DNA of 64,000 nt from Daphnia pulex. Taxonomy: Eukaryota; Arthropoda; Branchiopoda; Diplostraca; Daphniidae. The notes under the pieces were generated by a model. That model was not told the origin of the DNA and did no database searches. It worked only from the letters and a program-made list of their open reading frames with translations. Each line of letters starts with the position of its first letter. The stretch's first letter is position 1. Positions 12,035 through 60,431 of this stretch are shown here, piece after piece. A program made the position numbers and the translations under genes. Location: positions 6,473,501 to 6,537,500 of the forward strand of contig NC_060021.1 of the NCBI RefSeq assembly GCF_021134715.1. The letters run 5' to 3'.

Positions 12035-13208
12035 TTAAATGATGTTCCACTCGCCGGCGGGCCTTTTGTAAGGTGACGTCCACATTACTACAAAGCGAAT
12101 AATAACGTCATTAAAATGGCGACGGAGATGAAACGAAAAACAGAAACGCGGACGAGAGACTCACTTGCTGCCCGTTCCTCTCTGCTGCAATTTCAACAAA
12201 GAAGGAGCTACGGCTTGGGCGACATCCAGCGGCTCTTCACCAGCCCCTTGGCTGTTGGGCCCTTGACACCGACGATCCTTGCGCATCCAACCAACTTTTC
12301 AAAATAAAAGAGAATAAATAACGCCAGTCACATAACAACTCGATTATGATCTCTCTCTCTCTCACTCACCTATTCCGAGTTTTTGGGAACTCTTCCGGCT
12401 GCTACGGTTGCTGATGACAGGGAAGCGCTGCTTCACTTTGGGTTCCTTCTCCCTGAACCTCTGGGCAGAGAGGGCGAGTGCGTGAACCACCGAGCCTTTG
12501 CGTATCAAATTCCTTTCGTCACTCCAGCCATCCATTTCACTGTGTTAACCACCACCCATCAAAGACGAGCGTTAGTAAGTACTCGATCCACAATATCGCG
12601 TTACGGCACCACGGCCGCCGGGAAAATCAATAGGCTTTCAAGGAAAGAGAGAAAAAATACCCTCGAGTCAAGTACTTACCTCGCATTCTTTTTGCCCTTC
12701 CGGTTCTTTTCCGAAGTCGTTTCGTCCACGACGAAGAAAGTGACAGGAGGCACCCCTCCGCAATCGTCTCTTGTCGATTGCAAACAATCCCTGGGGGGAA
12801 AAACAATTGAATTTTGGAATAAATTTGAATGAATTTCTCGGTTTCTTATACTTGAAATAGCCACTGTTTTCGGGCGGAGTGTCTTGCGGTTGTTCCAACG
12901 TGCGGCCGAATCCAACAGTCCACTGAGCAACACCCGCCGGAAGATTCCGCCGTGGACGTCTTTGATGTAGGCCAGCAATTGGCGAACATCGCAATACAGC
13001 GCCTTAAACCCAATCAATTATTATGAAGCCAAACAATTTCGATGAAATGTATCAGGATCAAAAACACTTACGACATTCTCGGATGACTTGAGGAATTTCA
13101 ACGAGGCCGTGAGTCGGGTGACGAACGGTTTGAAGATGCAATTGATGACGTGTCCTTCGATGGTCCGAGGGGAACCGAAATTGGGCACGTAACTCGTTCC
13201 AGTTTGTT
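12035..13208 (-). pseudogene. unc80: unc80 fragment, unit 1 (left-truncated)
   Basis: This is the 5'-side part of the unc80 segment found in full at 27914-33592. Exons read leftwards: about 13208-13072 (EGHVINCIFKPFVTRL), 13002-12855 (ALYCDVRQLLAYIKDVHGG, GIFRRVLLSGLLDSA), 12790-12680, 12539-12370, 12294-12165, and the beginning of an exon at 12087-12035. Human UNC80 has closely matching stretches (GLYCDIRQLVQFIKEAHG, FRRVALSALLDSAE). UNC80 is a large scaffold of the NALCN sodium-leak channel. The last exon is cut at 12035, where homology with 32426 stops. A 17-bp addition near 12744-12760, absent from the other units, breaks the frame of the third exon. It is a relic, not a gene. Confidence 0.85.
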
Positions 13209-13228
13209 CGACTCCCAAACGGGAGTCG
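13209..13228. repeat. Perfect 8-bp inverted repeat at the unc80 fragment edge
   Basis: CGACTCCC, a 4-base loop AAAC, then GGGAGTCG. It lies where recognisable unc80 coding sequence ends. No good splice acceptor for that exon is visible beyond it, so the exon seems cut at the hairpin. The same structure occurs at 33583-33602 and 53946-53965. Confidence 0.6.
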
Positions 13229-13376
13229 TTCAGTAGTATAGTTCAGGATAATTCTCAAAACCGGAAGTACGCGTACGTACAAATAAAAACATGAACTTTA
13301 CCACAAATTTGACGAGGATCACAAATATGTGGTTTTTTTGTGCTTCGAATGAATATTTACTGAACTACTGACTGAA

Positions 13377-13716
13377 ATGAGAAAACCAGAAGTAGAAAAA
13401 AAATCAGTTATCGAAAATTTAACAGGTGAGCTTTGTTGCTGGAATAGTTATCGTCGGTTTTCACTAAATATTTCAACAAAATAACTGTCGATTAATGCTT
13501 AAAAAGATGTTCAAAGTAACGGAAATTGACTGTTTTGACAGCTAAAATTATCGAAAAGCCATCTAGCGTTAGAAAAAAGAAACGCCCAAGTAAAACTTCG
13601 TTTGCGCGTAAGAAGGCCCTGATTTTGGAAAGTATTACACAGACAGAGTTTAACGCAACTAGACTATTATGAGATAACCTACGAAAATAAGTCAATTGTT
13701 GGGTACCTGGGCATAA
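13377..13716 (+). pseudogene. Small two-exon gene, unit 1 copy, broken
   Basis: Homologous to the intact 74-codon gene at 33751-34091. Exon 1 (13377-13425) and the splice sites AACAG|GTGAGC and TTTTGACAG|CT are preserved. In exon 2, TTA (Leu) has become TGA at 13670-13672, and one A is missing from the AAAAA run just downstream, which also shifts the frame. One further residue differs upstream (Ile instead of Asn). This copy cannot make the full product; units 2 and 3 can. Confidence 0.55.
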
Positions 13717-15094
13717 TCCTGTGGTGAGTGACTGCAGGTGTGTAACAGCGGACGGAGGTGATCACTGAAGTGGTCCAGAAACTCGCGAAGTCGCCAGTGA
13801 AGTCAAACAAATTGTGTTTAGAAGCAGTAAAGCTAGATGAGCATGCGTCACAAAGATAAGTGTGGAGAAGAACATTGGTGGAAGTCCTTCTTCGGTCATG
13901 GACAAAGGTCAGCATTGGCACAAGAATGTCCGTGCCAGGACCACACCATTCCATAAAGAAACTGCATGCTCTGTAAAAAAAAAAAATGATACATTAATGA
14001 AAATATAACAATGAAAAAATCAGATCAATCTTTACCTTTTCTAAGAAGCAAACTGAATTGTTATGATGAAAAAAACCGTAAAAATGGAATTCACAGCAAC
14101 CAACAGCATTACTCCAAATGTTGAGATACATCTCCTGATGCTAAAGAAAGTGTATGAATCATGAAGTATTGCAGTAATGTGGTAATAGGTGGTATTGATG
14201 CTTACCCTTATCCTATGGGTAATGAATTTAGTAAGGCATTTGACTTTCATCAAGCAGATCTGGTACCACGTTCATACAAATGGCAGGATATTCACTTCAC
14301 ATGCTTCATGTCTCTGAAACTCTAAGTGGGAATGGGACAAGGAAATTCTCATATAATTTTCAAATTTACACAAATTTACTTATCGAGAAATAAAACTTAC
14401 CTATCCTTTAGCTGGGTTGCCTTCTAAACAGAAGTAAACAAATGAATGACAACAAACATGCTGTTGCAGGGCACGCCATCAAAAATTGCAAGATTCAGAA
14501 AAGATCCTATGGTTCACACGGAAGGATACCTATGTTATAAGAAAATATGAATTGTAATGGTCTAGTAGCAGCAGAGACTACGAATTCGTAGTCTGTGGTA
14601 GCAGTAAAAATGGGGAAATACCTTATCTCGGCACATTTGTATTCCGCTACCTGTGGGTATCAAACATTAGTTTCAGCCTTTAGGCTTCTGACAGCATGGG
14701 TCTATTGGATGGAAAGTGACTGACAGTATGCATGTATGCATAATGCATCTAGAATTTGAAAGAAATAAGTTGGTACAGTATAAACAAAAGGAAGTTAGGT
14801 CAAAATAAACCTACATCAGATACGAAGTTCAATTTGGTAATTGAATCACAGGAATATAAGTATAAATAAGCTACAATTTGTTTCGGCCATTTTGGCTCGT
14901 TTAACGATGTAACAACAACAAGGGCAACACTAGCGACATCTGGTAATGAGTTTTTGAATCCTAAGTTGGTTCCTCAGTCACAGCTCATTGGAGTTCTATT
15001 GTCGCGTAGTATTGTCGGGTATTTTTGATAAAATATTGGGGTTCTAGTGTGGTTGTTTTCGTTGAAGTTCCAACGACAAGTGGGGGCTTCGTAT
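13717..15094. other. Spacer of unknown content with a perfect palindrome
   Basis: No gene is supported. A minus-strand open frame (13954-13679) begins EWCGPGTDILVPMLTFVHD and is also present at 34329 and 55736, but I do not recognise it. Several minus-strand donor-like signals (GGTAAG types near 14030, 14200 and 14395) suggest a spliced noncoding or decayed transcript. An 18-bp perfect palindrome centred on GAATTC lies at 14576-14593. The same spacer recurs at 34092-35459 and 55499-56866. Confidence 0.4.
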
Positions 15095-16360
15095 TTTTAT
15101 GCTGCTGTGGTTGTGGTGTACGCTTCAGTTGTGTAGTAGGCCGGTTCAGAGTAGTAGGCAGGGGCAGCCGTTGTATAATAAGGAGCCTCGGCGTAGTAAA
15201 CCGGAGCAGCAGTTGTGTAGTAAGGAGCTTCAGTGTAGTAAACTGGAGCAGCAGTGTAGTAGGAGCCTCAGTGTAGTATACAGGGGCGGCAGTTGTGGTG
15301 GTGTAGTAAGGAGCCTCGGTGTAGTAGACCGGTGCAGCAGTGGTGTAATACGGAGCCTCGGTGTAAGCTGGAGGAGCATAGTAGCATGGAGCAGCATAGG
15401 TTGTGGTATAAACTTCCGTGGAATAGTAGACCGGAACAGGAGTAGTGTAAACCGGAGGAGCATAGTAGCTTGGAGCGGCGTAGGTTGTGGTGTAAACCTT
15501 GGTGGTGTAGTAACTGGGCTCGGTGTAATAGGCAGGAGCAGCTGTGGTGTAGTAAACTATAGCAGGATTGGCGTAGTAGACTGGTTAAACATACGGCGCA
15601 ACTGTGGTGTAGACCGGAGGCGAGTACTAGCTACGCGCGGCATATGCAACTGTGGTAGTATAGTAGGTCTCAGTAGGGTAGTAAGCGTAGAAAACGACAA
15701 CAGTTGTAGTGTACGGGGCAACAGTCGGGTATGACTCCTAGAAACCACAGAATGTTTTAGCGACTTTAACACATTTATACTTATGATAACCTTACCTGAT
15801 AGTACGACGCCGGTGTTGTTGCTGGTGGACAATAACAAGGAGTCGTAGCATAATATGCTGGAGCCTGAGGAGTCTGCCTTTTCTTCTGGGCATTATAACC
15901 ATAATCAACCTGTAAATCCAAAACAATTGTTTAAGACAAAACTCTTGATTAGTTTCCGAACGGGGCTTACTGGGTAGTAGGAAGCAGGAAGTTGTGGTCG
16001 GTGGAGGAGAATAATACGTAGCCGACGTTGTGTAGCAGGATTCAGGTGCGGAGTAGACACTGCGGTTCATCTGATGACCATATCTACCCTATTTAGACAT
16101 TTAATCGTTTTTCCACAACAGGAATACTTGAAGTTTACTTAAATATGTCGGCACAGGTGTGGTGTAGTACTATGGTTCCTCGGTATAGTATTTAGGAGCT
16201 TCTGTGTAGTGCTTTGAAAGTTTGAAGTATAGGTGTAATTGGCCGACGGTAGGGCATGTCTTTGTTGATGCCGTTGATCATTCATCTCCGGACCGAGTTC
16301 AGGCATATAAGCTGATTGGGCATACTCGCAGCCAGCGAGACCAAGATCATGAAACAACAT
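15095..16360 (-). pseudogene. Secreted Tyr/Thr/Pro-rich repeat protein, copy A, decayed
   Basis: Read leftwards from about 16360, the product has a short N-terminal exon, two exons rich in YYTT and PPTTT, then a long exon of repeats such as YYTTAAPVYYTEAP. Such proteins are common in Daphnia and are usually annotated as adhesive-plaque-like or cuticular structural proteins. The copy is broken: an in-frame TAG follows YYTEEP near 16170, the signal-peptide region is out of frame because of a 2-bp difference from copy C, exon 2 changes frame before its donor, and the large exon contains further stops and frame changes. The + strand open frames over it are shadows of the repeats. Confidence 0.6.
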
Positions 16361-16770
16361 GCTAAAGAAACCTAAATAACCTGGTGAAACGAGCGAAAGT
16401 GAAAAGAAGAGGCTCTGAACAGAAGAAAAAAAAACACAGGAAGAAGAGGAAGAGAAAACGTCATGTCGAAATAAAGGACGAAAAAAGTTGGAAGAAGAGC
16501 GGATGCTTGACTCCTTAAAGTTAAAGTAAATGGCTGGGATTCCCCTTCACAAACACATTTGCAGCTGTTTTTTTTTTTTTAATTTCGTCCTTTCTCTAGA
16601 AAAATATATTCTCCATGCTGAGTAACCAAGCGTTCAGTTCAGACGGTAACAAAAGTACGGAAAATAACAAAAGGGAGAGTGTCGGGAATTTTTTCAAAAG
16701 TTTGGAATTTTGTAAATTAAACAATAAAATAAAGTTGAAAAGATTGCGACAAAAAAAGCCATCTTTGGGG

Positions 16771-18952
16771 TTAAACGGTGGGTTTAGACTTCGATCGTTT
16801 CTTTTTTCCTTTCTTGTTCGGCTCGGCGAGTTCCGAATCCAAGTCGGCAGACAACGATAGACTGACGTTCAAGGGATTCAGTTCCCGTTCTGAGAAAAAA
16901 TACTTGCGTAATTCAGCATCTGGCAAATCGTTTTCATTCAAATCGGGCGCATCCAAGATCGCTTCTTCTTCCGCGGTTAGTTCTTCCGATAAAAAAATTG
17001 AAAAAATAAAAACATTATAACCAAGGCGTAGGATAAAAGAGACAATTTCAAAAAAGAGAAGTTAAAACAATATAAACCTCTTGGTATAACAGGTGCAGTG
17101 ATGGGCTCATTGATCCTTGCCGTCTCTTCTTCCTGGTACAACGCTTCAATAGCAATATCTTGGAATTGAAAGATTTGCTCCAGATACTTGGGTATGTCGT
17201 TAGTGCATTTACCCTCTTTCTCAATCCAAGTCATGTGTTGGAAGAGCGGTAACAATTCCTTCGAAATTTGTAAGACACTCCTTTTGATGTGGTTGGCAGT
17301 TCCATCGCCGATGTCAAGGTTAGTTAACGTCAAATACTTCTGAAAATAGCCTTTCTTATTTGGTTCGATGAGTTCTTTGAATGGCACTTCGCTGTTGAAG
17401 TTCTTGTCATAATAATGACATGATTGCCATGCTAGGAAGCCTGCGGCGATGGTGATGATGCGACGGTCGAAACTTTGCTTGGTCCGCCGATCAAAAATTG
17501 AAACGATGTTGTTTGTGATGTTGTAGACCCGTTCAGTTATTTCCACAGACGACTTGAAAGGATCGTGGATTCTAAGGCTGGGTAGAACTGAACGGGCATG
17601 GTGGAGAACTACAGGGATGGATCTTGAACTTCCAGCTTCACATGTGGTTGTTGATTTGTTTGTGAGTTGAGGCGGTTCAGGCAACTCTTTGAGGTACCTT
17701 TCTAGTTTTTTCAGAGTAGCGCCAAGTTGATAATGAGTAACCGGAGGGGTTACATTTAGAACAGGTGCAATTTGCTTGATGGAAATGCCCTTCTCTTTTC
17801 GATATACAAAGATGAAGACAGCAGCTGCCGCTGTTGTAAGGTTGCGACGTCCTTTGAGATCTTGAAAAATATCCAGCATATGGTTTTTTAGGTGTTCAGC
17901 ATTAAATGCCCTGCAGAGTGTTTCGATGGTATCTACTCCTTCTTCTCTTCCCAGGAAGATGGAAGCCTTGGAAGATAAAACCTGCTTTCCCTGGACCCGT
18001 GCTCCAGAAACCACAGACTTGGGCCTGAAAAATTTGTAAATGTAGTCATCTAAAATTCAAGGAAATCTGGGTTTTTACCTCTCTTCTTCTTCAGACTCTT
18101 CGGACTCTTTAACAACTTTAAGTGCCTCAGCTTTTCCTTTGGGATGTTTTGGAAGCTTTTTTCCTCCAACTTTCACTTTGAGTCCAAGATCCAACTCAGC
18201 TTTTGTTCCCAGTAAGGTGGGAGACTTGGGAGAGAAAACCTCCTTTCCTTTGATTCGTGCTTCAGAAATCACCACATCAGTTTCAAGCCTAAAAAAAAAA
18301 TGTAGTCATGTGAAGTTCAAGGAAATTAGGGTTTTTACCTCTCTTTCTCTTCAGATCCTTTGGACTCTTCAGACTCTTTAACAAATTTACGTGCCTCCGC
18401 TTTTCCTTTGCGATGTTTTGGAAGTGGAACCTTATTTCCTCCAACTTCCACTACGAGTCCAGCATTCAATTCAGACTGTGCTCCCAGGAAGATGGAAGCT
18501 TTGGGAGAGAAAACCTTTTTTCCTTTGACCCGTGCTCCAGAAATTACCACAGTCTTGCACCTGAAAAAATAATTAAATGTAGTCGTGTGAAATTTAAGGA
18601 AATGGAGTTTTTTACCTCTCGTTATCTTCAGACTCTTCCAACTCTTCAGACTTTTCAAACTCTTCAGTCACTTCAATAACTTTAGGTGCCACAGCTTTTT
18701 TTTCGTGATGGTTTGAAAGTGGAATCCTTGTTTCTCCAACATTCACTGCAAAAAGAGATAAACATCACAATCAATGTACCAGTAACAAAGAACAGGTTGT
18801 AGATAAATTGAAACATTCCGATGCAAAACAACATAAACTTGCATGTAACCATGACATAACATAGCAACAACAGGAACTGACTTGGAACAGAAACAATACT
18901 CACTAGCTGGGAGGTTTCCATCTTTCACTTTAGCTTTCTCAGAGTCAGACAT
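16771..18952 (-). CDS. BRF2-like (TFIIB-related) protein, type A, unit 1
   Basis: Six exons join in one frame: 18952-18904, 18745-18616, 18560-18339, 18288-18079, 18024-17078 and 16982-16771, giving 589 residues. Exons 3 and 4 are two copies of one module of about 70 residues (VVISGARVKGKKVFSPK at the start, an acidic ESEE tail at the end); the core exon starts with the same motif. The core then resembles human BRF2, the TFIIIB subunit for type-3 Pol III promoters: two cyclin-like folds, the second with RRIITIAAGFLAWQS (human VITAATFLAWQS), and a C-terminal DLPDAELRKYFFS like the human DSEIEQYL segment. The usual N-terminal zinc ribbon (CxxC pairs) is not seen. Function as a Pol III factor is an inference from these matches. 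The first ATG (MSDSEKAKVK) was chosen because it lies in the exon with a clean donor. No break is seen. Confidence 0.72.
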
Positions 18953-19246
18953 TTTTCGTTTGTTCACTATAGAAAGACAAATGTGATTCTAATGGTCAAG
19001 AAATACAAGAGAACTGCGTAGCTACTTGAAGACAAAACTGACAAATCGCAAAAAGTTGCTTTCTATTCTGTCTTCTTCTCAATAGCTTTCCTCTAAAACA
19101 CTCGCTTGCCTTTGATATGTCGATTTTTGACGTAAAAAGTATTTCTTTTTTCCCGATTCTGTTTTCTACTGACTGTTGTTATTAACCTAACATGTTTTCA
19201 TTTTGGATTTCATGTTTTCATCCAAGACAGTTGAAATAACAAATAA

Positions 19247-19258
19247 GGTATCGATACC
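19247..19258. promoter_or_regulatory. DRE-type palindrome upstream of BRF2-like A
   Basis: GGTATCGATACC, a perfect 12-bp palindrome holding TATCGATA, the DREF element known from Drosophila housekeeping promoters. It lies about 300 bp upstream of the type A start codon. The same palindrome is kept at the same distance upstream of the other two intact BRF2-like genes (39610-39621 and 60727-60738). Confidence 0.5.
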
Positions 19259-19755
19259 AGCTGTTGTCTATCGGACTTGAATTGTAGTGCAGAGTTGCTA
19301 GATTTCTAAATTTCGTCAAGGAATAATTCTTGAATGCTAAAAAGGTAAATAAATACACAGGAAAATAATAAAAAGCTCCAGGAAAATATCGTTATTATGA
19401 AAATAAAAAAACTATTGAACGAGACAATGATCGAAATGACAGCACGTCGTGAGGCGATCGTTCATGAAGGCTAGAAATGAATGAGCTAATCAAGCTTCTG
19501 CTTGTTGGAATAAATTAGATCCGCTAGATTTGTTCCCTTATCTATTTAAATACTTTATCTTTTCTTTTCTTTTTAAAATGAAGTCGCTGGTGTTACTGTA
19601 CTGAGCAGCACCAGAGAGACTGGAGGTTGTTCAATGAAAGGTTTTGTGTGTGTGTGTGTGGACCGATGGTGTCGTATTCCCGCTTTAGCTGCGTCACGAG
19701 TCTGCTCAAGTCACCGAACAAATAATCAAAAGGGAGTGTAAAAAAAAGAGGAATG

Positions 19756-19763
19756 TATAAAAA
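19756..19763 (+). promoter_or_regulatory. Candidate TATA box for a + strand transcript
   Basis: TATAAAAA. A strong donor (ATCCAG|GTAAGC, GT at 20030) follows, which would end a noncoding first exon. Its partner could be the acceptor before 22414. Together with the minus-strand gene starting at 18952 this would make a divergent promoter region. It is repeated at 40119-40126. Confidence 0.35.
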
Positions 19764-21260
19764 CCCTACGTCCAGGAAGAGAGAAAGAGAAAGAATGAGA
19801 ACTTTGGTCGAAAGAGGAAACCTATGATGAAAGTCAGGAGGATCAAAGCACACGAGAAGCAAAAAGTTATCGGCAGTCTGTGTAGTTATACGACTGGGTG
19901 TAGAAGCCGCCAGCCAGCCAGCTAGCGAGCCCTTCTTTTTTCTCCCAACTGATAAAACTCACGTTCCACCGAGCCCTGCCACTTGAACGAAAGCCACAGC
20001 CCAGTTCACTCGTCTTTCTCTTCATCCAGGTAAGCGATTTCTCCCCCCACTTACCTTAGAAACTTTGACATTGTAGAAAAAAGAAGCTCCATTTTGTCGT
20101 CCAGACGTGTGAGATTCACGTGCTCGGAGACATAACAATAATACTACCCGTACATACGCGCTGTACACATTCGTGATGTATCATTCGCGGCGTGTTGAGT
20201 GATTATTTTTAGAGTTTAGCAGGTGAAGCTGGCTCGGAAAAATCCCGAGAGTCGGGAATCTCTATCGAGTGTTTTCGTGTGTGAGACTCGCTCGCCGTCC
20301 TTTCACTGTGTATATTTTTGCTTGATTATTCATGAAGGCAGGGTGCAGCTCTGTTTCAACAATTTTATATATTGGCTCTCATCCTTATTGTCATTGTTGT
20401 TTACTCCCGACCAGCAGAGCTCTCGCGTCTCACCTATCTACTTTTTCCTATTTTCGAAAGAAATGAAAACAGCGGAAAACAGAAGATGTCAAATATGTCT
20501 ATCAGTTAGAGGGACCACTGTTGATGCCAAAATCACAAAAGTGTGGTAGGGAATCTTGATCTTGTTATGTCGAAAATTATCAAAAGGAGAAAAGGTGAAA
20601 GAAGGTGAAAGAGAGAGAATTAAATAAGCCAGAAGAAGTTAACGAATACTGCCAGTGTTAATATTATTCCCGATAAAAGCGGATAAAAGTACGCCGAAAA
20701 AAGAAGCTTAATTAGCCTAATACCATAGCATTTGTTAAATGTTTCTTCAGCATTATTTTTAATATCACCTTTTTTCACTAGTTCGCAGTCAGCAGTCGCT
20801 TATAAAGTAGCCAGCTGGCGGTAATATTTTCAAAAATTTAATTAGGTACTCAATTAAAATCTATTCGGGTCGGGCGGCCATATTTTTTAGGGCGAAATAG
20901 GAACTAAACATTTTTATGAATAAAGTTAAGTGGCAAAAATATTGAATTCAAGGAATAACTGAAAGAATTTCTACCAAAATTCAATTAAGTTGGAAAAAAA
21001 AAGAAATTAAGAAAAATGAAGTTGCACAATTAACTGCCAGAATAGGATGTGGGTCGGCGGCCATCGACTATTGCCAGAACACTTTGGACGTGTGCATCTT
21101 TTTAAATTAATCGCAGATTTTTTTTCACGATGTGTGTTAAAATTTTACTAGTATCGATTAATCATCGATACACATGTCTGCTGAAATGGCTGAAATGCTG
21201 AAATTTAAAAACATTTTCTTTTTGATTTTATAATTATGTATAGTTATTACATATAAACAT
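19764..21260. other. A-B spacer, left part
   Basis: AT-rich noncoding sequence with the candidate first exon ending at 20029. The open frame at 20223-20549 has no features I can support. An imperfect inverted repeat (GTATCGAT, 5-base loop, ATCGATAC) lies near 21152-21172. The equivalent in the next unit is 40127-41623. Confidence 0.4.
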
Positions 21261-21560
21261 GGGGTGAGTGGGTGTATTGGTTAAGGCGTTAGGCCTAATT
21301 GGGGATAAGTGCAGAGGTGCACTTTGAGACCAGGGTTCGAACCCCTGGTATAACATTGTTGTTTGGCTATATACCCACTATGGCGCCACTGTGGCATCAG
21401 ATGTAATATCTACCCCGACCCCCGTGCTGGAGAGGGAACTCGGGAGAGTTGCTGAGGGATGTTTCGTCCAATAATCCTCAGCGCAAAAGGCGAATGAAAT
21501 GTGGAGTAATCGGAAACTGGCGCTGTTTATCTGGCAGAGCAAAGTGTCCTAAAATGCCTT
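21261..21560 (+). mobile_element. tRNA-derived SINE, unit 1
   Basis: The first 90 bases (21261-21350) resemble a class II tRNA of Leu/Ser type: an A-box-like TGGTTAAGGCGTTAGG, a long variable arm that pairs (GTGCA/TGCAC), and a B box GGTTCGAACCC inside a perfect T arm (CAGGG/CCCTG). The acceptor stem does not pair, which argues against a functional tRNA and for a SINE head. A tRNA-unrelated body follows; its 3' end is not clear and the end given is approximate. The next unit has the same element at 41624. Confidence 0.55.
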
Positions 21561-22419
21561 GTTCCGTCGTGTTGAATGAATGTGTGTAGCAAAAGTTGGG
21601 CGCAGCGCTCTATACGGGCTAGACGTATATCTTCAGTGATCATAAACGCATGGTTTCCACCGACAACTAATGTTGGCCGTGTCATGATATACCGCCGGGT
21701 GTATCATGTGGGCAACCTCTTGATAAATGCGATTATGTGAGGGATATTTGTGCTAGATTCAGATCCGTATATCCTGAGACGTATTATCTTATGTAAACCG
21801 TAGACTAGAGCTGGCCGTGGTGACCCAGTGCATACCACCCAACCCATTGCTATACTATGGAATTATCGTATACATTACATGTTCAAGCGATAATTAGTAT
21901 AACAAGCCCTACACACACACAATGGCGGATGCTCTCTCTCCTTGCTATTTCAAAGCAAAGTAGGGCGTGTATTTTTTTAATTCATTTGGTTTTCTAATTT
22001 TGACCGCCAGTTCAGAAAACAAAAAGTTTGATTCTGCCTTGGCAGCATAGACAACCTTGACCATCGACTATATAAGAAAAAGTAGCCATGTGAGGTGAAA
22101 GTTTCAGCACATTTTAATAGTTGTGACTCCCTTATGGTCAATTTTTCAAACATCACCGCATTCAAAAATGTCTATTCATTTTAAGGTCACATTTGAGTTT
22201 TGTTTTGTGGGCTGTTAAGTTTCAATTTATTGATTTCGCCAAGTAGGCTACTGGCTGTTGTCAAGCATTTTATATCTTACCGTAGCCTAGGGTAATTTAT
22301 AAATGTATTGGTAAATATATTTGAGAGAACTGGTGTGAATTTATCATTGAAAGTCGGCGATTGTTCTAAAAAAGTCTATATACAATCACTGTCATTTTAT
22401 TTTCGATTTCCAGTTAACT

Positions 22420-22781
22420 ATGCTGTTTGCCGGAATACGGGAACGGCAGTTTGGCGGCCAATGGACAGATAACAGAACATCCGCCTTCCTGCAACCATTT
22501 ATGTGCTCCGGCAAACCGGAGAATGGGTTGAAGTTGAAGAAGAAAAATCATCGAAATTCCAATGCAGAGACAGCAGCACACACTCCTGCTGGTAAGTGAA
22601 ATTTGCTTCATGCTTTCTCTAGATGACATCTAGATCTAGAGATCTAGTAGATGTGTTTGAACGGGCAAGTGTATGGTAGTATTATTTTTTTTCGCATCAA
22701 TGGTCAAAGATTTTATAATGGTCTCACCGGAAGTAAACGCGCTGCTAGTTTTTTTAATTATTTTTAGGTGCAGTTAAGTGA
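22420..22781 (+). CDS. Candidate small spliced ORF (61 residues), unit 1
   Basis: An exon after the acceptor GATTTCCAG opens 6 bases before an ATG at 22420 and runs to a strong donor CTGCTG|GTAAGT (end 22591). Joining to the acceptor TTTTTAG at 22767 continues the frame for four codons to TGA at 22779-22781. The product starts MLFAGIRERQFGGQW and is rich in Lys and Asn in its second half. With the noncoding exon that ends at 20029 this could be a real short gene, or a noncoding RNA with clean splice sites. I do not recognise the family. Confidence 0.35.
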
Positions 22782-48276: not shown

Positions 48277-51200
48277 TTCGAACACGTTGCGGAACTGATG
48301 ACCGGCATTGATGTAGGTGGCCATGCAGACGGCGTCTTCACAGTAGAGGACCAACGCTTGATGAAGTTGATCACGTTGATGAAGAGGTGGATGTCCCCCG
48401 AATAAGCAAAGTTGCCCACCATGGCTTCAAACATTTGTCGGATTAGTTTCACCCAGCTGAGCTTGTGCATGAAATCCCGAACGTACGCTGATGGATTGTG
48501 GATCTGGTTGGTCCGGTAGTCGACCAGGAAGTACTCGCGCTGTCTGTGCTCGTCGATAGAAAAGAAATCGAGCGATTCTTGCAATATCTGCGAAAATTGC
48601 GTGTCTTCCTGGATGGGGAACTGGGACGGAATGGCGCCGGAATCGGATTCGTTGGGCCCGTGAACCACAATCTTCTTGGCAGATGGAACGTTGGCCGTGA
48701 TCAGGATCGAAGCATCGCATTGCTCCTTGCGTAAAATCTGCTTGAGATCCTTAAACAACAAACCCTGAACACTTGGCGCCACCTATGAAACAAATTTCAA
48801 ATTCAATTTCTCCATTTCTACAACAATCGAGTCGTTTTATACGAATCTCACCATGGATAACAAGGATAAGGCATTGCCGACTAGATCCTGACTGCCCTCC
48901 ATCGGAGTCCGGACGTAGAACATGATGTAGCCGATGAGATAATTGTGTAGAGTGAAGGCCGTCTGTTGCGGCAGGTAGGCAACAAAGCGCAAAAGGCGGC
49001 GCAAAATAGCGAACATCTCGTCCTGTTTTTCACGAGTCAATCGTTCCAGGATGTGGCGCAGGAAAAGGGCAGTATCTTCCACCAAACACGAATGCAGTAC
49101 CTTATTTTTTTTTCAACAGAAAATTATTATTTTTATTTTCAAAATGATTTTTAAAACTGGCGGGCAATACCTGATTAGCCAAATCGCAGACGGCCACGCC
49201 ATCTGGCGTTAGAACGGAATCGTCCAAAAGGTCGACGATGGGGACGATAGCCGAGCACAAACACGACGGGAAAAGAAACTGAGCCGATTGTAAAGGCTGA
49301 CCAGAAGTCCGGCTTTGCTGTTGGGCTTCATCATCTGCTAAAATTTGTTTGGAAAACATTTTTCAAATTTTTAAAATGTTAATTTTTTTAAAAACGTGTT
49401 CAACTATTTACTACCATCGTCATGATCGTCTGCTCCGACGTGATGAAGCGCCGGTTCGTAAGACGCTTGGATCGTGACGGGAACGGCGCTAATGCGGAAA
49501 TTTTCCCGCTCGCTGCATTTGCGATCCTCTTCGTCTTTGAGAGCCGATTCGACCAGTTCAGTTTGTTGTTTCTTCCACGTCTTGGTGGCCGTCACCAGCG
49601 AGCGGTGCGTGTCTTGGTTGAGCGTGACTTCCTGGACTCTGGTGCGGACGTGTGGCATCCAGGGAGGATCGACCACCGGCAGAGATTCCACACCGATCCT
49701 GGGCGATGGCAAGGTGAACTCAATGGCATGTGGTGGCACTTTGAATGAGTGAGCAGCGCCTTCTTCCATCCGCGGCCAGACTTGATACCTCGACCGCCAT
49801 AAAACTTGAAATCTGATCATTAGGATAAAAAATTAAACGACTGTTACTAAACTTTCCTGATTTCGCCCTAATAAATAGACGTTACTTGAGAAGTGCTTTG
49901 AATCGTTCAATTGGATCTGGATGTCTCAAACTTCCGTTGAGTAGGAGGGTTATGGGTTCCGGACAGCGGACGGCCGACAGGATAAACATGGCGGCAGCCG
50001 CGGCAACCGTTTCCTTTTGGACGTCCAGGAGCAGTTCCCAGGCGATCGGGATAATGTCGAGAAATGCCTCGTCGTTCATGATGGTGGCACTTTTGATGGG
50101 AACCAATAGCGGAGCTTGGAAAAGATTCATCACCTGAGAAGAATCCAAAGGGAATTCATTCATAATTCATCTGGAATTGGCCGAAAATTTTCCAGTTGAT
50201 TTTATACCTGGAATTTGATGTATTTCACCATGGGGTGATCCTCCTTTTTCTTGGATTTATTCTCGTCGCCATCGCTTTCGTTGGGAAAGTGTTTGCTCTG
50301 GAGTCCCATGACTTTGTTGCGGTCCCATTGGTCGTGTTCGATTTGGTTGCGTGACAAGGTGGCCGATGAACTGTGGCAAGAACTCGCCTTTGACAGCAAA
50401 TCGTTGGTGGATCTGTCATTAACAATCCCGTCAATATTTCCCCCGCACGAATAAAATCTTTTGTGACAATCCCTCACCTTTCTTTCTTGTTGGCGACACT
50501 TTCTCTTCGCCTCAAAGGAGATCCTGGTCTGCTCTGGGCTCCTTTTGAGGCTTTTTCCTTTTTGTCGTGGTCCTTGTGATGTCGAGACTTTTTACTGAAA
50601 CTCAGAAATTCCACGACTTCCTGGTGTTGCGGCTCGTCGCCGTAAATCTTCCGGACGCTACTCAGCATCCGGCTGCAGGCCCGGCTCTGTCTGCGGAAGC
50701 ACCGGGGGTGGCACACGTGTTGATGTTGGCATTGGTAGTAGAACGAATTGGACAGCAACAAAACCGACTGGATGGAAAAGAAAGTTTTTAAAACTCACGG
50801 AACAAGTTCACATTAAACTTATGGAAATCCATTTTACTCGGAGCCAAGGCATTCCACGAGTAGAGATTCCTTCCTCGATGTCGGCTGCACCGTCGCTGGG
50901 ACTTTCGTGTTGGCCGTCGTCGCTGAGGATTCCGGGACTCTCTTCCCCCGAGATGTCGTGATCCATCGGTACGTCCGAGATGTCACTACGATCCGATATC
51001 GACGAGACTTTTCGCTTCGAGCGGATCGAATCCGATCGCTTGATGGATTCGGCGTCGGATTGGTCGCCACCGCGGCGGGACTCGCGATGACTCCGTCTCA
51101 GTTTCAAACTCCTACTCCTCCGCTTGAAAGATCCCGTGTTGCTCATGGTGCTCCGTCGGAGTAGATACGGCCGTCCTTGAGCCAGCCGTCGGTTGCGTTT

Positions 51201-53955
51201 CTCTTCCATCGCATCATCCCCTGGAAATTGGTCTAGGTTTTACAAAACTGCTGTAACAAATTCAGGAAATGAAATGACAAACCTGAAACGTGAGGGTCGT
51301 GTTGCTGCTGTCAAGCGATTCATCGTCTGGTTCGTGAAGGACGAAACTGATTTTGCGTTCCCCTGGAACTCCGCCAATTGAATGCCCGTCTCCGGTGATG
51401 GATTGGAGACTCTGAGCGGAATTCTGAGACTGGCCCATGGAAGACAGGGCCATACTCCAACGTCGTCCACCTGCTGGATTGCTGGCCGGCGTCGCGATGG
51501 AAGTGGTGGCCAAGGCTAACGATCCCGATCCTCCCGTTCCACCGGTTGAATGGTGAGTGAAAGATTCGCCACTGGAAATGACAACGGCACCGGAAGGAGC
51601 TCCGCCACTAGCCGGATTGCCGCCGCGTGTTTGCTCATTAAACGAAGAGCCGGAAGCGACAATGAGGCTACCGCCCGTGTTGTTTCCGCCGCCCGTTTTA
51701 CTGGTGGCGTCGTTGCTCCGCAGTGAAACGCGCGTGGAGCGGGGAAGGCGACGGTAGGAATCCCGCAGGAAAGCCGTGATTTCATAGAGGAGCATACAGG
51801 CAGCCAAACGTAATGGCCAGGGGAAGTCTCGCCCGGAAGGGTTAACACTCGCTACAATTTGAAAATGATAAAAAGACAATCAATTATGAATGACGAATAA
51901 TTTATTCAACGACAAAAAACTCAATTACCTTCAACTAGAAAGTCTTCATTCTCTTCGTCCTCGATGAGAATTCGTTGACGTTGTTCATCCATGGCGTGGG
52001 CGTCGTAGTCTTCGCAACAAAGCGCATCATCAATCAGAATTTCTTCCAACCGGACTCCGATTGCCTGTAAAACAATTTTGGGTGGGGGGGATTACAAATT
52101 GATTCGGGAGAAAAAATCCGAGTGGGCGGAATTAAGGGAAAACGAACCTCGGCCCAGGAGAAAAACATTCGACCACCCAATCGTTGGAGAATGTGCGTTC
52201 GCCTCTGCCCTGATGGAGTTCCACGGTTAGATAAAGGCCCCGACGGTCGATAGAACGGCAAATTCAACTTCATCCAAGACGGCCACTGTCCGCGGTTGCA
52301 GCGGTTGACAAAATGGGCGCACTCGAACAGAAAAGCGGCTCGAGCGATCACCGGACGGTGATTGTGGCTGCGTGCACAGAGAGGGAAAGAGAAAAACACA
52401 CACAAAAATCAATAAATGCAAATCAAAATCCTTTGCGTGGGAATTTTGTTTTTCCTACCAAATCGAGAACGGCAGCGATAAGGTTGGCATCGGGTATGGC
52501 CCCTGGTTGACAAGCTTCCAAAAGGAAACTCAATCGAAGCATTCCATCGTAAATGGCCGGCCCTGAAACCATTTTCCTTTCCCTGGGAATGACCACAAAC
52601 ATTTCTCTTCCATTTCCATCCATCTCGGGTGAATTCCGCCGACTCTGATCTTTTGAAAAGAAATCAAAAAAAGTCGTAAAAAAAGAAATGAAAAGGTATC
52701 GATTTCATTTTTTTCTTCTATTCAAACTCACCTGGTGTCGCTTCACGGCTGATGATTTGCCGTCGGCTCTTGCCAAAACCGATCCGCGTTAAATGATGTT
52801 CCACTCGCCGGCGGGCCTTTTGTAAGGTGACGCCCACATTACTACAAAGCGAATAATAACGTCATTAAAATGGCGACGGAGATGAAACGAAAAACAGAAA
52901 CGCGGACGAGAGACTCACTTGCTGCCCGTTCCTCTCTGCTGCAATTTCAACAAAGAAGGAGCTACGGCTTGGGCGACATCCAGCGGCTCTTCACCAGCCC
53001 CTTGGCTGTTGGGCCCTTGACACCGACGATCCTTGCGCATCCAACCAACTTTTCAAAATAAAAGAGAATAAATAACGCCAGTCACATAACAACTCGATTA
53101 TGATCTCTCTCTCTCTCACTCACCTATTCCGAGTTTTTGGGAACTCTTCCGGCTGCTACGGTTGCTGATGACAGGGAAGCGCTGCTTCACTTTGGGTTCC
53201 TTCTCCCTGAACCTCTGGGCAGAGAGGGCGAGTGCGTGAACCACCGAGCCTTTGCGTATCAAATTCCTTTCGTCACTCCAGCCATCCATTTCACTGTGTT
53301 AACCACCACCCATCAAAGACGAGCGTTAGTAAGTACTCGATCCACAATATCGCGTTACGGCACCACGGCCGCCGGGAAAATCAATAGGCTTTCAAGGAAA
53401 GAGAGAAAAAATACCCTCGAGTCAAGTACTTACCTCGCATTCTTTTTGCCCTTCCGGTTCTTTTCCGAAGTCGTTTCGTCCACGACGAAGAAAGTGACAG
53501 TCGTCTCCTGTCGATTGCAAACAATCCCTGGGGGGAAAAACAATTGAATTTTGGAATAAATTTGAATGAATTTCTCGGTTTCTTATACTTGAAATAGCCA
53601 CTGTTTTCGGGCGGAGTGTCTTGCGGTTGTTCCAACGTGCGGCCGAATCCAACAGTCCACTGAGCAACACCCGCCGGAAGATTCCGCCGTGGACGTCTTT
53701 GATGTAGGCCAGCAATTGGCGAACATCGCAATACAGCGCCTTAAACCAAATCAATTATTATGAAGCCAAACAATTTCGATGAAATGTATCAGGATCAAAA
53801 ACACTTACGACATTCTCGGATGACTTGAGGAATTTCAACGAGGCCGTGAGTCGGGTGACGAACGGTTTGAAGATGCAATTGATGACGTGTCCTTCGATGG
53901 TCCGAGGGGAACCGAAATTGGGCACGTAACTCGTTCCAGTTTGTTCGACTCCCAA
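48277..53955 (-). pseudogene. unc80: unc80 internal fragment, unit 3
   Basis: Copy of 27914-33592 at an offset of 20,363; all exon translations compared are the same, including the 3' damage (missing segment after YVRDF, frame break after NVINF). Because the defects are shared they arose before the array expanded. As in unit 2, it lacks the N-terminal and C-terminal thirds of UNC80. Confidence 0.88.
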
Positions 53956-54109
53956 ACGGGAGTCGTTCAGTAGTATAGTTCAGGATAATTCTCAAAACCG
54001 GAAGTACGCGTACGTACAAATAAAAACATGAACTTTACCACAAATTTGACGAGGATCACAAATATGTGGTTTTTTTGTGCTTCGAATGAATATTTACTGA
54101 ACTACTGAC

Positions 54110-55145
54110 TAGTGATGGCAACCTAGTTTTTTTTGAAAACTAGGTATTACTATTACTAAATACCTAGTATTTTAGAAAAAGTAGGTATTACTAGGTTATT
54201 ATACCTAGTATCAAAATAAATTCAACTAGGTATCGGGAAAAAAAACTAGGTTTTTACTATTACTAGGTATAAACTAGGTAACTAGGTAAAGTACCTAACT
54301 AGGTAAAAATACCTAGTTACCTAGTTACCTAGTTTGGATATTTCTCTGTTTATACTTCCAAATTACATAAAAAACACAAATACAACAACTTGCAACTGAA
54401 TTTTTTCTTTTTATTGCAATTTCTGTCCCGCTAAGATCAATGATAGGATAGAAAGGACTAACGACTAAGCGATAAGAACGGAAATTGAAAATTAGAGACT
54501 GAGAATTCAGATTCAGAAGTCAAAGTTTTTGTTGAATCGGCAAAGTGTTTGCGATTCTACCAAGACAGGGGAGACATTTCTTTTCTTGCCTTTGCAAGAA
54601 CGACCACTACACGAAAAAAGACGCTCTGCAGAGGCAGAAGTAGCTGGCATGACGAGATACTGCAAAGCAATCGGCGACAACTTAGGAAATCTCCCAGACT
54701 TTTCTCTCCAGAAAACGAAGGGGTCCACTTCCTCATGAAAATCTCCTTTGTTTAGTGTTTCAGTTTTAGTTTTTCAGTGATTCAGGATTTCAGTCTACCG
54801 TAAACCATACGTTTGACTTTGAATTCAAGAAACAATGGCTGCCGGCCGGGCCTGTGATTTCTGATGCCTGTCTAGTGTCTACCAGAAACGACCAGAAAGC
54901 AGAGAAGCTTACTACAATTAAATAAAAGCATAGTTGCCATTTATTTGACAATGCTGCAAAAAAATGGAAAATACCTAGGTAATTACCTAGGTAATCATTT
55001 TTCAAAAACTAGGTATTACTATTACTAGGTATACCTAGTAATAGATTTTTTCCCGAAAACTAGGTAAAAGTAGCTGAAAAAAAACTAGGTATTACTAGGT
55101 AACTAGGTAATACTAGGTATTACTAACCTAGTAATGCCACCACTA
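54110..55145 (-). mobile_element. hAT-type DNA transposon, deleted copy, 1,036 bp
   Basis: Terminal inverted repeats TAGTGATGGCA and TGCCACCACTA match at 10 of 11 positions. The element is flanked by an exact 8-bp duplication CTACTGAC (54102-54109 and 55146-55153), the size typical of hAT insertions. Units 1 and 2 have one CTACTGAC and no insert (GAACTACTGACTGAAATG), so this is a clean empty/filled-site comparison. Both subterminal zones are packed with CTAGGTA motifs in both orientations (54124-54333 and 54973-55131). A remnant of transposase lies inside. The insertion is 4 bases from the start codon of the small gene at 55158. Confidence 0.88.
54513..54728 (-). pseudogene. hAT transposase C-terminal (dimerisation) remnant
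   Basis: About 70 codons include LSPIALQYLVMPATSASAE followed by RLFS, the conserved hAT C-terminal dimerisation motif (family form: LA..YL..PATSA.SER.FS). The DDE-type catalytic part and the DNA-binding BED finger are missing, so this copy cannot move itself. Confidence 0.82.
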
Positions 55146-55157
55146 CTACTGACTGAA

Positions 55158-55498
55158 ATGAGAAAACCAGAAGTAGAAAAAAAATCAGTTATCGAAAATT
55201 TAACAGGTGAGCTTTGTTGCTGGAATAGTTATCGTCAGTTTTCACTAAATATTTCAACAAAATAACTGTCGATTAATGCTTAAAAAGATGTTCAAAGTAA
55301 CGGAAATTGACTGTTTTGACAGCTAAAATTATCGAAAAGCCATCTAGCGTTAGAAAAAAGAAACGCCCAAGTAAAACTTCGTTTGCGCGTAAGAAGGCCC
55401 TGAATTTGGAAAGTATTACACAGACAGAGTTTAACGCAACTAGACTATTATTAGATAACCTACGAAAAATAAGTCAATTGTTGGGTACCTGGGCATAA
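55158..55498 (+). CDS. Small basic protein, two exons (74 residues), unit 3
   Basis: Identical open frame to 33751-34091: exon 1 55158-55206, exon 2 55323-55498. The hAT element ends 12 bases before the ATG, counting its target duplication, so the upstream region of this copy is separated from the coding part by about 1 kb. Coding capacity is intact; expression may differ from unit 2. Confidence 0.45.
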
Positions 55499-56866
55499 TC
55501 CTGTGGTGAGTGACTGCAGGTGTGTAAGAGCGGACGGAGGTGATCACTGAAGTGGTCCAGAAACTCGCGAAGTCGCCAGTGAAGTCAAACAAATTGTGTT
55601 TAGAAGCAGTAAAGCTAGATGAGCATGCGTCACAAAGATAAGTGTGGAGAAGAATGTTGGTGGAAGTCCTTCTTCGGTCATGGACAAAGGTCAGCATTGG
55701 CACAAGAATGTCCGTGCCAGGACCACACCATTCCATAAAGAAACTGCGTGCTCTGTAAAAAAAAATGATACATTAATGAAAATATAACAATGAAAAAAGC
55801 AGATCAATCCTTACCTTTTCTAAGAAGCAAACTGAATTGTTATGATGAAAAAAACGTAAAAATGAAATTCACAGCAACCAACAGCATTACTCCAAATGTT
55901 GAGATACATCTCCTGATGCTAAAGAAAGTGTATGAATCATGAAGTATTGCAGTAGTGTGGTAATAGGTGGTATTGATGCTTACCCTTATCCTATGGGTGA
56001 TGAATTTAGCAAGGCATTTGACTTTCATCAAGCAGATCTGGTACCACGTTCATACAAATGGCAGGATATTCACTTCACATGCTTCATGTCTCTGAAACTC
56101 TAAGTGGGAATGGGACAAGGAAATTCTCATATTATTTTCAAATTTACACAAATTTACTTATCGAGAAATAAAACTTACCTATCCTTTAGCTGGGTTGCCT
56201 TCTAAACAGAAGTAAACAAATGAATGACAACAAACATGCTGTTGCAGGGCACGCCATCAAAAATTGCAAGATTCAGAAAAGATCCTATGGTTCACACGGA
56301 AGGATACCTATGTTATAAGAAAATATGAATTGTAATGGTCTAGTAGCAAAAAGACTACGAATTCGTAGTCTGTGGTAGCAGTAAAAATGGGGAAATACCT
56401 TATCTCGGCACATTTGTATTCCACTACCTGTGGGTATCAAACATTAGTTTTAGCCTTTAGGCTTCTGACAGCATGGGTCTATTGGATGGAAAGTGACTGA
56501 CAGTATGCATGTATGCATAATGCATCTAGAATTTGAAAGAAATAAGTTGGTACAGTATAAACAAAAGGAAGTCAGATACGAATCAGATACGAAGTTCAAT
56601 TTGGTAATTGAATCACAGGAATATAAGTATAAATAAGCTACAATTTGTTTCGGCCATTTTGGCTCGTTTAACGATGTAACAACAACAAGGGCAACACTAG
56701 CGACATCTGGTAATGAGTTTTTGAATCCTAAGTTGGTTGCTCAGTCACAGCTCAAATTATTGGAGTTCTATTGTCGCGTAGTATTGTCGGGTATTTTTGA
56801 TAAAATATTGGGGTTCTAGTGTGGTTGTTTTCGTTGAAGTTCCAACGACAAGTGGGGGCTTCGTAT
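55499..56866. other. Spacer of unknown content, unit 3
   Basis: Counterpart of 34092-35459 with no difference noticed. Palindrome at 56353-56370. No gene supported. Confidence 0.4.
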
Positions 56867-58117
56867 TTTTATGCTGCTGTGGTTGTGGTGTACGCTTCAG
56901 TTGTGTAGTAGGCCGGTTCAGAGTAGTAGGCAGGGGCAGCCGTTGTATAATAAGGAGCCTCGGTGTAGTAAACCGGATCAGCAGTTGTGTAGTAAGGAGC
57001 TTCAGTGTAGTAAGCTGGAGCAGCAGTGTAGCAGGAGCCTCAGTGTAGTATACAGGGGCGGCAGTTGTGGTGGTGTAGTAAGGAGCCTCGGTGTAGTAGA
57101 CCGGTGCAGCAGTGGTGTAATACGGAGCCTCGGTGTAAGCTGGAGGAGCATAGTAGCTTGGAGCAGCATAGGTTGTGGTATAAACTTCCATGGTATACTA
57201 GACCGGAGCAGGAGTAGTGAACCGGAGGAGCATAGTAGCTTGGAGCGGCGTAGGTTGTGGTGTAAACCTTGGTGGTGTAGTAACTGGGCTCGGTGTAATA
57301 GGCAGGAGCAGCTGTGGTGTAGTAAACTGTAGCAGGATTGGCGTAGTAGACTGGTTAAACATACGGCGCAACTGTGGTGTAGACCGGAGGCGAGTACTAG
57401 CTACGCGCGGCATATGCAACTGTGGTAGTATAGGTCTCAGTAGGGTAGTAAGCGTAGTAAACGACCACAGTTGTAGTGTACGGGGCAACAGTCGGGTATG
57501 ACTCCTAGAAACCACAGAATGTTTTAGCGACTTTAACACATTTATACTTATGATAACCTTACCTGGTAGTACGACGCCGGTGTCGTTGCTGGTGGACAAT
57601 AACAAGGAGTCGTAGCATAATATTCTGGAGCCTGAGGAGTCTGCCTTTTCTTCTGGGCATTATAACCATAATCAACCTGTAAATCCAAAACATTTGTTTA
57701 AGACAAAACTCTTGATTAGTTTCCGAACGGGGCTTACTGGGTAGTAGGAAGCAGGAAGTTGTGGTCGGTGGAGGAGAATAATACGTAGCCGACGTTGTGT
57801 AGTAGGATTCAGGTGCGGAGTCTAGACACTGCGGTTCATCTGATGACCATATGTCCATATCTACCCTATTTAGACATTTAATCGTTTTTCCACAACAGGA
57901 ATACTTGAAGTTTACTTAAATATGTCGGCACAGGTGTGGTGTAGTACTATGGTTCCTCGGTGTAGTATTTAAGAGCTTCTGTGTAGTGCTTTGAAGTATA
58001 GGTGTAATTGGCCGACGGTAGGGCATGTCTTTGCTTATGCCGTTGATCATTCATCTCCGGACCGAGTTCAGGCATAGAAGCTGATTGGGCATACGCAACC
58101 AGCGAGACCAAGATCAT
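56867..58117 (-). pseudogene. Tyr-rich repeat protein, A/B hybrid copy (C), decayed
   Basis: The left part matches copy A of unit 2; the right part matches copy B, with the switch between 57271 and 57328. At the right end this copy has an intact secretory start: ATG at 58117 reads MILVSLVAYAQSASMPELG, a likely signal peptide, whereas A and B carry 2 extra bases there. It still has the stop after YYTEEP, and an 8-bp insertion near 57847-57854 and a further change near 57822 that adds a stop in the next exon. It is therefore also a pseudogene. Confidence 0.6.
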
Positions 58118-58541
58118 GAAACAACATTCTAAAGAAACCTAAACAACCTGGTGAAATGAGCGAAAGTGAAAAGAAGAGGCTCTGAACAGAAGAAAAAAAA
58201 ACACAGGAAGAAGAGGAAGAGAAAACGTCATGTCGAAATAAAGGACGAAAAAAGTTGGAAGAAGAGCGGATGCTTGACTCCTTAAAAGTTAAAGTAAATG
58301 GCTGGGATTCCCCTTCACAAACACATTTGCAGCTGTTTTTTTTTTTTTAATTTCGTCCTTTCTCTAGAAAAATATATTCTCCATGCTGAGTAACCAAGCG
58401 TTCAGTTCAGACGGTAACAAAAGTACGGAAAATAACAAAAGGTAGAGTGTCGGGAATTTTTTCAAAAGTTTGGAATTTTGTAAATTAAAAAATAAAATAA
58501 AGTTGAAAAGATCGCGAAGAAAAAAAAAGCCATTTTTGGGG

Positions 58542-60431
58542 TTATACGGTGGGTTTGGACTTTGAACGTTTCTTTTTTCCTTTCTTGTTCGGCTCGGCGA
58601 GTTCCGAATCCAAGTCGGCAGACAACGATAGATTGACGTTCAAGGGATTCAGTTCCCGTTCTGAGAAAAAATACTTGCTTAATTCAGCATCTGGCAAATC
58701 GTTTTCATTCAAATCGGGCGCATCCAAGATCGCTTCTTCTTCCGCGGTTAGTTCTTCCGATAAAAAAATTGAAAAAATAAAAACATTATAACCAAGGCAT
58801 AGGATAAAAGAGACAATTTCAAAAAAGAGAAGTAAAAACAATATAAACCTCTTGGTATAACAGGTGCAGTGATGGGCTCATTGATCCTTGCCGTCTCTTC
58901 TTCCTGAAACAACGCCTCTATAGCAACATCTTTGAACTGCAAAATCCGTCCAAGGTATTTGGGTATGTCGTCCGTGCCTTTTCCCTCTTTCTCAATCCAT
59001 GTCATGTGTTGGAAGAGCGGTAACAATTCCTTCGAAATTTGCAAGACACTCCTTTTGATGTGTTTGGCAGTTACATCGCCGATGTCAAGGTAAGTTAACG
59101 TCAAATATTTCTGAAAATAGCCTGTCTTATTTGGTTCGATGAGTTCTTTGAATGGCACTTTGCTGTTAAAGTTCTTGTCATAATAATGACACGATTGCCA
59201 TGCTAAGAAACCTGCAGCGATCGTTATGATGCGACGGTCGAAACTTTGCTTGGTGCGCCGCTCGAAGACTGCAACGATGTTATCCGTGATGTTGTAGACC
59301 CGTTCAGATATTTCCACGGACGGTAGGAAAGGATCTTGTACTTTGAGTTTAGGAAGAACTGAACGGGCATGATGGAACACTACAGGGATTGAGCTTGAAC
59401 TTCCAGCTTCAGATGTTCTTGTTGATTCTAACGAGGGTTGAGGCAGTGCGGGGAAATTCCCTTTGAGGTGCCTTTCAACTTTTTTCAGAATTGCGCCAAG
59501 TTTGTACAGTGTGACTGGAGGGGAAACATTAAGAACAGGCAAGACTTGCTTGATGGAGATTGGCTGACACTTCCTTCGGTACACAAGAATGAAAACAGCA
59601 GCTGCCACTGCAGTAAGGTTGGTTCGCTCTTTGAGAAGCATGAAAGTTTCCATCATTTCCTTTTCTAGGTGGCCAGCACTAAATTCCCTGCAAAGTGTTT
59701 CAATGGCATCGACTCCAACTTCTCTTCCCAGGAAGATGGGAGTCTTAGGAGAGAAAACCTCCTTTCCTTCAACCCGTGCTCCAGAAATCACCACAGTTTT
59801 GGGCCTGAAAAAAATAAGTCAATTTAGTCATGAAAAATTTAAGGAAATGAGGGCTTTTACCTCTCTTCTTCTTCGGACTCTTCAGCAAATATAGCTGCCT
59901 CAGCTTTTCCTTTGTGATGTTTTGGAAGCTTTTTTCCTCCAACTTTCACTGGGAGTCCAACATCCAACTCAGCTTTTTTTCCCAGTGAGGTGGAAGCCTT
60001 GGGAGAGAAAACCTTTCCTTTTACTCGTGCTCCAGAAATTACCACAGTCTTGCACCTGAAAAAATAAGTAAATGTAGTTGTGTGATATTTTAGGAAATGA
60101 AGGTTTTTACCTCTCGTTATCTTCAGACTCTTCCAACTCTTCAGACTTTTCAAACTCTTCAGACACTTCTTCGTGATGGTTTGAAAGTGGAATCCTTGTT
60201 CCTCCAACATTCACTGCAAAGAGAGATAAACATCACAATCAATGTACCGGTAACACAGAACAATGAGAACAACAGGTTGTAGATAAATTGAAACATTCCG
60301 ATGCAAAACAACATAAACTAGCATGTAACCATGACGTAACATAGGAACAACAGGAACTGACTTGAACAGAAACAATACTCACTAGCTGGGAGGTTTCCAT
60401 CTTTCACTTTAGCTTTCTCAGAGTCGGACAT
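58542..60431 (-). CDS. BRF2-like protein, type B, only intact copy
   Basis: Five exons join in frame: 60431-60383, 60213-60111, 60055-59861, 59804-58849 and 58753-58542, giving 504 residues. It has a single module exon (VVISGARVKGKVFSPK) before the core, against two in type A. The core resembles BRF2 with two cyclin-like folds, FLAWQS in the second, and DLPDAELSKYFFS near the C-terminus. No zinc ribbon is visible. By eye the first half of the core is about two thirds identical to type A and the second half about 90%. It is the untruncated counterpart of the two B fragments at 26715 and 47078, and so marks the original right edge of the array. Role in Pol III initiation is inferred from the family. 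Confidence 0.72.

Follow-up and report, generated by a model that had tools for sequence, protein, structure and literature searches.

A recombinant middle unit in a tandem array of chimeric DAP1::TFIIB-like genes of Daphnia pulex, probably produced by a recent unequal exchange

A window of 64,000 bp of the Daphnia pulex genome, corresponding to positions 6473501-6537500 of contig C5 in a 133.19-Mb assembly of 13 contigs, contains a tandem array whose units carry chimeric genes joining the 5' half of DAP1 to a TFIIB-like gene. We consider it probable that this array passed from two units to three through one recent non-allelic (unequal) exchange and that its chimeric genes still make protein. 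An LdhB qPCR primer of 24 bases, designed for D. pulex (PMC4117593), had a single exact match in this assembly and 0 in the controls, which makes a source within the D. pulex complex likely. In the following, plain coordinates are counted from the first letter of the window, units 1 to 3 are numbered from left to right, and C2, C5, C7, C8 and C12 designate contigs of the source genome.

The repeat was mapped by self-comparison of the window followed by a base-by-base list of differences. Positions 12035-33747 and 32426-54110 were 99.66% identical. They differed by 34 substitutions and 10 indel events, all inside 12079-16036, so that the left part of unit 1, of about 4 kb, is diverged, as an earlier note on this DNA had described. 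From there on, 16037-33747 was equal to 36400-54110, that is, 17,711 bp with zero differences at an offset of 20,363. This rules out a chance repeat and agrees with the recurrence of open frames at exactly +20,363 that the earlier note had reported. Along the 20,363 aligned bp, the first copy of the block (D1, 15450-35812) differed from the second (D2, 35813-57219) by a single mismatch, at 16036, and by a 1,044-bp insertion following position 54100, which alone makes up the extra length of D2 and is the transposon previously noticed as private to unit 3. Both copies are adjacent, direct and near-identical, including their noncoding DNA, as is found in tandem segmental duplications.

A three-way alignment of the units, from which the private insertion of unit 3 was omitted, gave 77 variable columns in which unit 1 was the odd one, 464 in which unit 3 was and two, at the alignment end, in which unit 2 was. 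Those of unit 1 were all located left of 15450, with a single exception, and those of unit 3 all right of 15558, except for 10 at the border of the insertion. Between both positions there is a tract of 109 bp (35813-35921 in the middle unit) over which unit 1 (15450-15558) and unit 3 (57220-57328) are identical. The middle unit is thus recombinant, being of the unit-3 type to the left of this tract and of the unit-1 type to its right: it matches unit 3 over 32426-35921 save for the insertion, and from 35813 on it matches unit 1 save for site 16036. At this site unit 1 alone has a C, the other three copies compared having a T, which is most simply explained by a new mutation in unit 1.

The limits of the array had to be redrawn. 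The sequence does contain the tandem repeat, but the third unit is not a full one, since the match drops to 87-88% past 59740, where unit 3 passes into an old paralogous cassette. Within this old diverged flank (59712-62498), positions 59712-61055 and 61675-62498 are 87-88% identical to 18194-19562 and 23458-24285. Positions 27914 and 48276, formerly taken as unit edges, are older junctions between TFIIB-like and UNC80 sequences and not edges of the recent event. Likewise, 12035 is not a unit start, because the UNC80 fragment spans the supposed boundary at 32426; the leftmost copy of this fragment is merely cut there.

These observations would be explained by the following course of events. 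The starting state would have been unit 1 plus the partial unit 3, with a divergence ranging along their length from well under 1% to over 20%. Both units would have mispaired in the segment of a tyrosine-rich gene and exchanged inside the 109-bp identical tract, the product being a middle unit with a left part copied from unit 3 and a right part copied from unit 1. After the exchange, unit 1 would have undergone a single base change and unit 3 would have received a hAT-like element. Using the D. pulex substitution rates given in PMC12926508 (2.30e-9 to 4.53e-9 per site per generation), the single difference would date the event to about 10,700 to 5,400 generations ago, with 95% limits of about 140-59,000. 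The young segmental amplification proposed earlier is thus supported, with one definable exchange. A recent tandem segmental duplication is of a known, ordinary kind. The direct in-register copies, their near identity and the switch inside pre-existing homology are shared with the tandem duplications arising by non-allelic homologous recombination, from which we found no difference in kind, the recombinant middle unit being here unusually legible.

Two points weigh against this interpretation. If the assembler had switched haplotypes within the 109-bp tract, an identical mosaic would have resulted, site 16036 and the insertion then being heterozygous sites, and a false assembly copy would also show near-perfect identity over 20 kb. 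The main rival is such an assembly artefact, with two real units and an assembler that crossed from the left end of unit 3 in one haplotype into unit 1 of the other, and the presence of only one substitution in 20,363 bp favors it. However, the window is free of N, the joint is in register, and the join would have had to pass through just 109 identical bases inside a repeat that spans about 4 kb at 99% identity. Moreover, with a diversity of about 1%, many more differences than one in 20 kb would be predicted between the haplotypes of an outbred Daphnia. We regard the artefact as doubtful and infer that the exchange took place in the animal rather than in the assembler. A simple haplotype duplication placed in series was also disfavored, as spread differences would be expected and one substitution was seen.

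It was also considered that template switching during replication-based copying, or gene conversion, and not crossing-over, produced the middle unit. No homology is evident at the junction between the TFIIB-like and UNC80 sequences (AAGATGGG-TT-CGAACACG), and the other end of UNC80 adjoins the position of the palindromic centre of a dispersed repeat, as seen in other copies of this repeat, so that such copying may have acted earlier. In the 20-kb event, in contrast, the switch lies where both units are homologous, neither flank was lost and the array grew by exactly one period, which is what unequal crossing-over predicts, and an origin of the middle unit by these other routes seems unlikely to us.

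Of all that the locus contains, the amplified DAP1::TFIIB-like fusion is of most interest. Three chimeric genes were modelled, all on the minus strand. A1 (16980-18952) has exons at 18952-18904, 18745-18616, 18560-18339, 18288-18079 and from 18024 to the first stop at 16980, and encodes 552 amino acids as read; A2 (37343-39315) has the same predicted protein of 552 amino acids; and U3 (58751-60431) has exons at 60431-60383, 60213-60111, 60055-59861 and from 59804 to the first stop at 58751, with 467 amino acids as read. Each model has a DAP1-like 5' untranslated region (UTR), start codon and exons 1 and 2, followed by composite DAP1 exons (one in U3, two in A1 and A2) and by a long last exon that passes from DAP1 into TFIIB-like sequence. 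The introns between the joined exons are all GT-AG and the three models are open to the first stop. A 275-bp tandem repeat at 17949-18570 corresponds to the duplicated composite exon plus its intron. Neither the 5' half of DAP1, nor these gene models, nor the recombinant nature of the middle unit had been recognized in the earlier note.

The DAP1-derived segments, comprising 5' UTR, exons and upstream DNA (17965-20531, 38328-40894 and 59748-61055, minus strand), are 69-90% identical to C5:6394474-6396297, a relative lying inverted about 90 kb left of the array with a Pfam DAP match of 1e-8. PF15228 (DAP) scored above the cut-off in both chimeric proteins (1.1e-6 and 7e-7), with matches spanning profile positions 1-68 and 1-70 of 98. 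The C-terminal end of the parent, INFIQQPRKQ, was not found, and the DNA of the chimeras diverges from the DAP1 parent upstream of the conserved C-terminal part. Since the match lacks this part, the chimeras cannot be counted as DAP1 proteins. When the genome was searched with the last exon of the parent, one match was obtained, the parent itself, and this same search also missed the partial exons of the array.

The TFIIB-like part derives from C7-related segments on the minus strand at 16375-17960, 26321-27910, 36738-38323, 46684-48273 and 58148-59737, with 74-85% DNA identity; the relative at C7:9517041-9518009 showed 62% protein identity, and its extra C-terminal exon is conserved in the five array copies. 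The ratio of nonsynonymous to synonymous divergence (dN/dS) of this part was 0.29 for A-B and A-U3 (B being the copies linked to UNC80, described below), 0.33 for A-C7 and 0.38 for B-C7 and U3-C7, and B and U3 differed there by one nonsynonymous change. When neutral evolution was simulated with substitutions only, both lineages stayed free of stops in 0 of 2,000 runs for a divergence close to the synonymous one and in 19 of 2,000 for the raw one. These data suggest that the fusion seems to be maintained by selection. The possibility that the whole array is neutral debris, whose open frames survive merely because the copies are young, could be based on the broken UNC80 piece and on the tyrosine-rich gene, which is out of frame in three of the four copies examined. 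However, the TFIIB-like parts of A and U3 are both open at a dS of 0.39-0.40 and a dN of 0.11-0.12, and we find this explanation improbable. Less favorable to functional fusions are the dN/dS of 0.63 of the DAP1-derived part between A1 and U3, obtained from few sites in an alignment made ambiguous by the pairing of two composite exons with one, and the fact that the splice sites of the last intron were not located by our script. On balance, the DAP1::TFIIB-like genes probably still make protein.

The identity of this second part was less precise. Pfam TFIIB matches in A were below threshold (E values of 0.0031 and 0.0049) and no match to this family was obtained in the proteins of B, U3 or C7. 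In fold comparisons, TFIIB, Brf2 and cyclins were tied, for residues 22-126 only of a model with a mean predicted local distance difference test (pLDDT) score of 41.7. Zinc-ribbon families gave no match in the two chimeric proteins, and an upstream open frame at C7 reached only an E value of 0.085. With hhalign, a three-sequence profile compared with the Brf1-like exon of the same genome at C2:12548655 gave a probability of 0.15%, and the sequence search of the PDB with the open reading frame of B and with a three-sequence profile yielded nothing meaningful. At most a cyclin core of the TFIIB-superfamily type is supported; nothing here separates RNA polymerase II from RNA polymerase III, so that of the polymerase III factor paralogs named in the earlier note the superfamily is tentatively retained and the polymerase assignment is not.

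Chimeric genes formed by partial gene duplication are known from Drosophila and other organisms. Those described here resemble them in having the 5' half of one gene, DAP1, in frame with the body of another and with the introns retained, and differ from them in their partners, in the repeated composite DAP1 exons and in the amplified copies of the fusion. A literature search for DAP1 chimeric genes in Daphnia returned no paper. Tentatively, it is possible that they form a selectively kept family in which the N-terminal half of DAP1, its 5' UTR and the repeated exons replace the N-terminus that a TFIIB-like cyclin-core protein would usually have. Such a protein, without the polymerase-recruiting ribbon, could compete at promoters, and the tandem duplication would have just raised its copy number.

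The second partner is UNC80, which Pfam identifies as the neuronal channel-scaffold fragment mentioned earlier. On the minus strand, a truncated copy on the left edge of the array (12035-13224) is 93.9% identical to C8:13407560-13408752, and fragment copy 1 (27916-33598), to which copy 2 (48279-53961) is identical, is 90-95% identical to C8:13402648-13408752. Open reading frames of the array matched UNC80 domains above the cut-off (PF20262, 3.6e-59; PF19424, 5.7e-61, 1.1e-17 and 8.7e-7 in three frames). At the C8 locus, frames readable by eye as UNC80 continue far past both ends of the matched stretch, whereas the array UNC80 is not full-length, being a 5.7-kb piece that has lost a 382-bp stretch with coding sequence and has a 5-bp insertion in its last exon. 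The two TFIIB-like genes of this kind, B1 (26921-28063) and the identical B2 (47284-48426), also on the minus strand, have a UNC80 exon in place of the DAP1 half. Their open frame of 380 amino acids runs on into one UNC80 exon in the own frame of that exon. The 5-bp insertion upstream shifts this exon relative to the C8 gene, and B1 and B2 would therefore be expected to be truncated.

The array UNC80 differed from that of C8 at 208 of 5,655 aligned sites and by 30 internal indels, including the 382-bp loss. In ten approximate exon spans, drawn by eye so that the comparison is rough, there were 47 synonymous and 23 nonsynonymous changes (proportions of 0.068 and 0.010 of the synonymous and nonsynonymous sites, pS and pN) and one new stop, at a span edge. 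Had the array piece been unconstrained since it split from the C8 gene, with both branches equally long, its own branch should have gained about 78 nonsynonymous changes (Poisson P 1.8e-13). This shortfall suggests that most of the divergence predates the copying and probably arose in a still-working donor, e.g., a diverged allele. The differences from the C8 gene are chiefly synonymous or noncoding, as if the piece were a recent copy of a diverged working allele.

Regarding the older history, the unit would have been built before the exchange by duplications at the DNA level, in which the 5' half of DAP1 was joined in frame to the TFIIB-like gene, and the UNC80 piece would later have taken the place of the DAP1 half in one copy. 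Between units 1 and 3, the UNC80 part had 3 substitutions in about 1.2 kb and the repeat arm differed by about 1%, and in the TFIIB-like gene up to 59 of 247 sites were different; B and U3 were 98.9% alike and A and B 93%. This gradient of divergence suggests that conversion or exchange has recurred within the array. In addition, the only other match found for the left flank (10651-11963) was at C5:6543161-6545982, to the right of the array, with 77-95% identity and in the same direction, a sign of a still older duplication.

The relic of the tyrosine-rich repeat gene is on the minus strand at 15131-16379, with related segments at 25084-26319, 35496-36742, 45447-46682 and 56903-58146. Its relative at C5:6406669-6409246 is open over 352 codons, with a related open frame at C5:6407344-6408399. 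Four of the five copies were compared, through low-complexity alignments: the matches were split between frames in A1, A2 and U3 and confined to a single frame in B1. Of the structural-protein relics reported in the earlier note, the term is hence suitable for this gene (three of four copies) and not for the TFIIB-like genes, which look intact.

The insertion private to unit 3 spans 54101-55144 with one copy of the target duplication included, and its edge could be shifted by up to 10 bp. Inspection by eye showed a target duplication of 8 bp, CTACTGAC, together with short inverted ends, TAGTGATGGCA and TGCCACCACTA, and the insertion presumably belongs to the hAT superfamily. The target duplication, together with full-length copies of 99% identity at C5:10035655 and C12:4059754, indicates a recent jump, and this hAT-like element of about 1 kb is taken as non-autonomous. 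The dispersed repeat is present as a single arm at 13237-15008 and 33614-35373 and as an interrupted copy at 53977-56780; it occurs at many genomic sites, frequently as inverted pairs, and its arm joins UNC80 at the position that the palindromic centre CTGAACTATAGTTCAG occupies in other copies. Elsewhere in the window, a tRNA-Pro (ggg) proposed by ARAGORN at 21271-21355, and again at 41634, was not supported, with 0 Rfam matches in the window at gathering scores. Left of the array, an open reading frame at 4356-6725 has a Rap_GAP domain and had been named SIPA1L-like in the earlier note; the search for the SIPA1L tail (SPAR_C) gave no match and was uninformative, its controls being equally silent.

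If the duplication is real, this locus captures the growth of copy number shortly after it happened, and the point of exchange is confined to 109 bp. It would also present a fusion that is seemingly kept by selection while it is being amplified and in which a second partner, UNC80, displaces the first. Finally, partial or fused genes of this region could be listed by automatic annotation under the names of UNC80, DAP1 and transcription factors.

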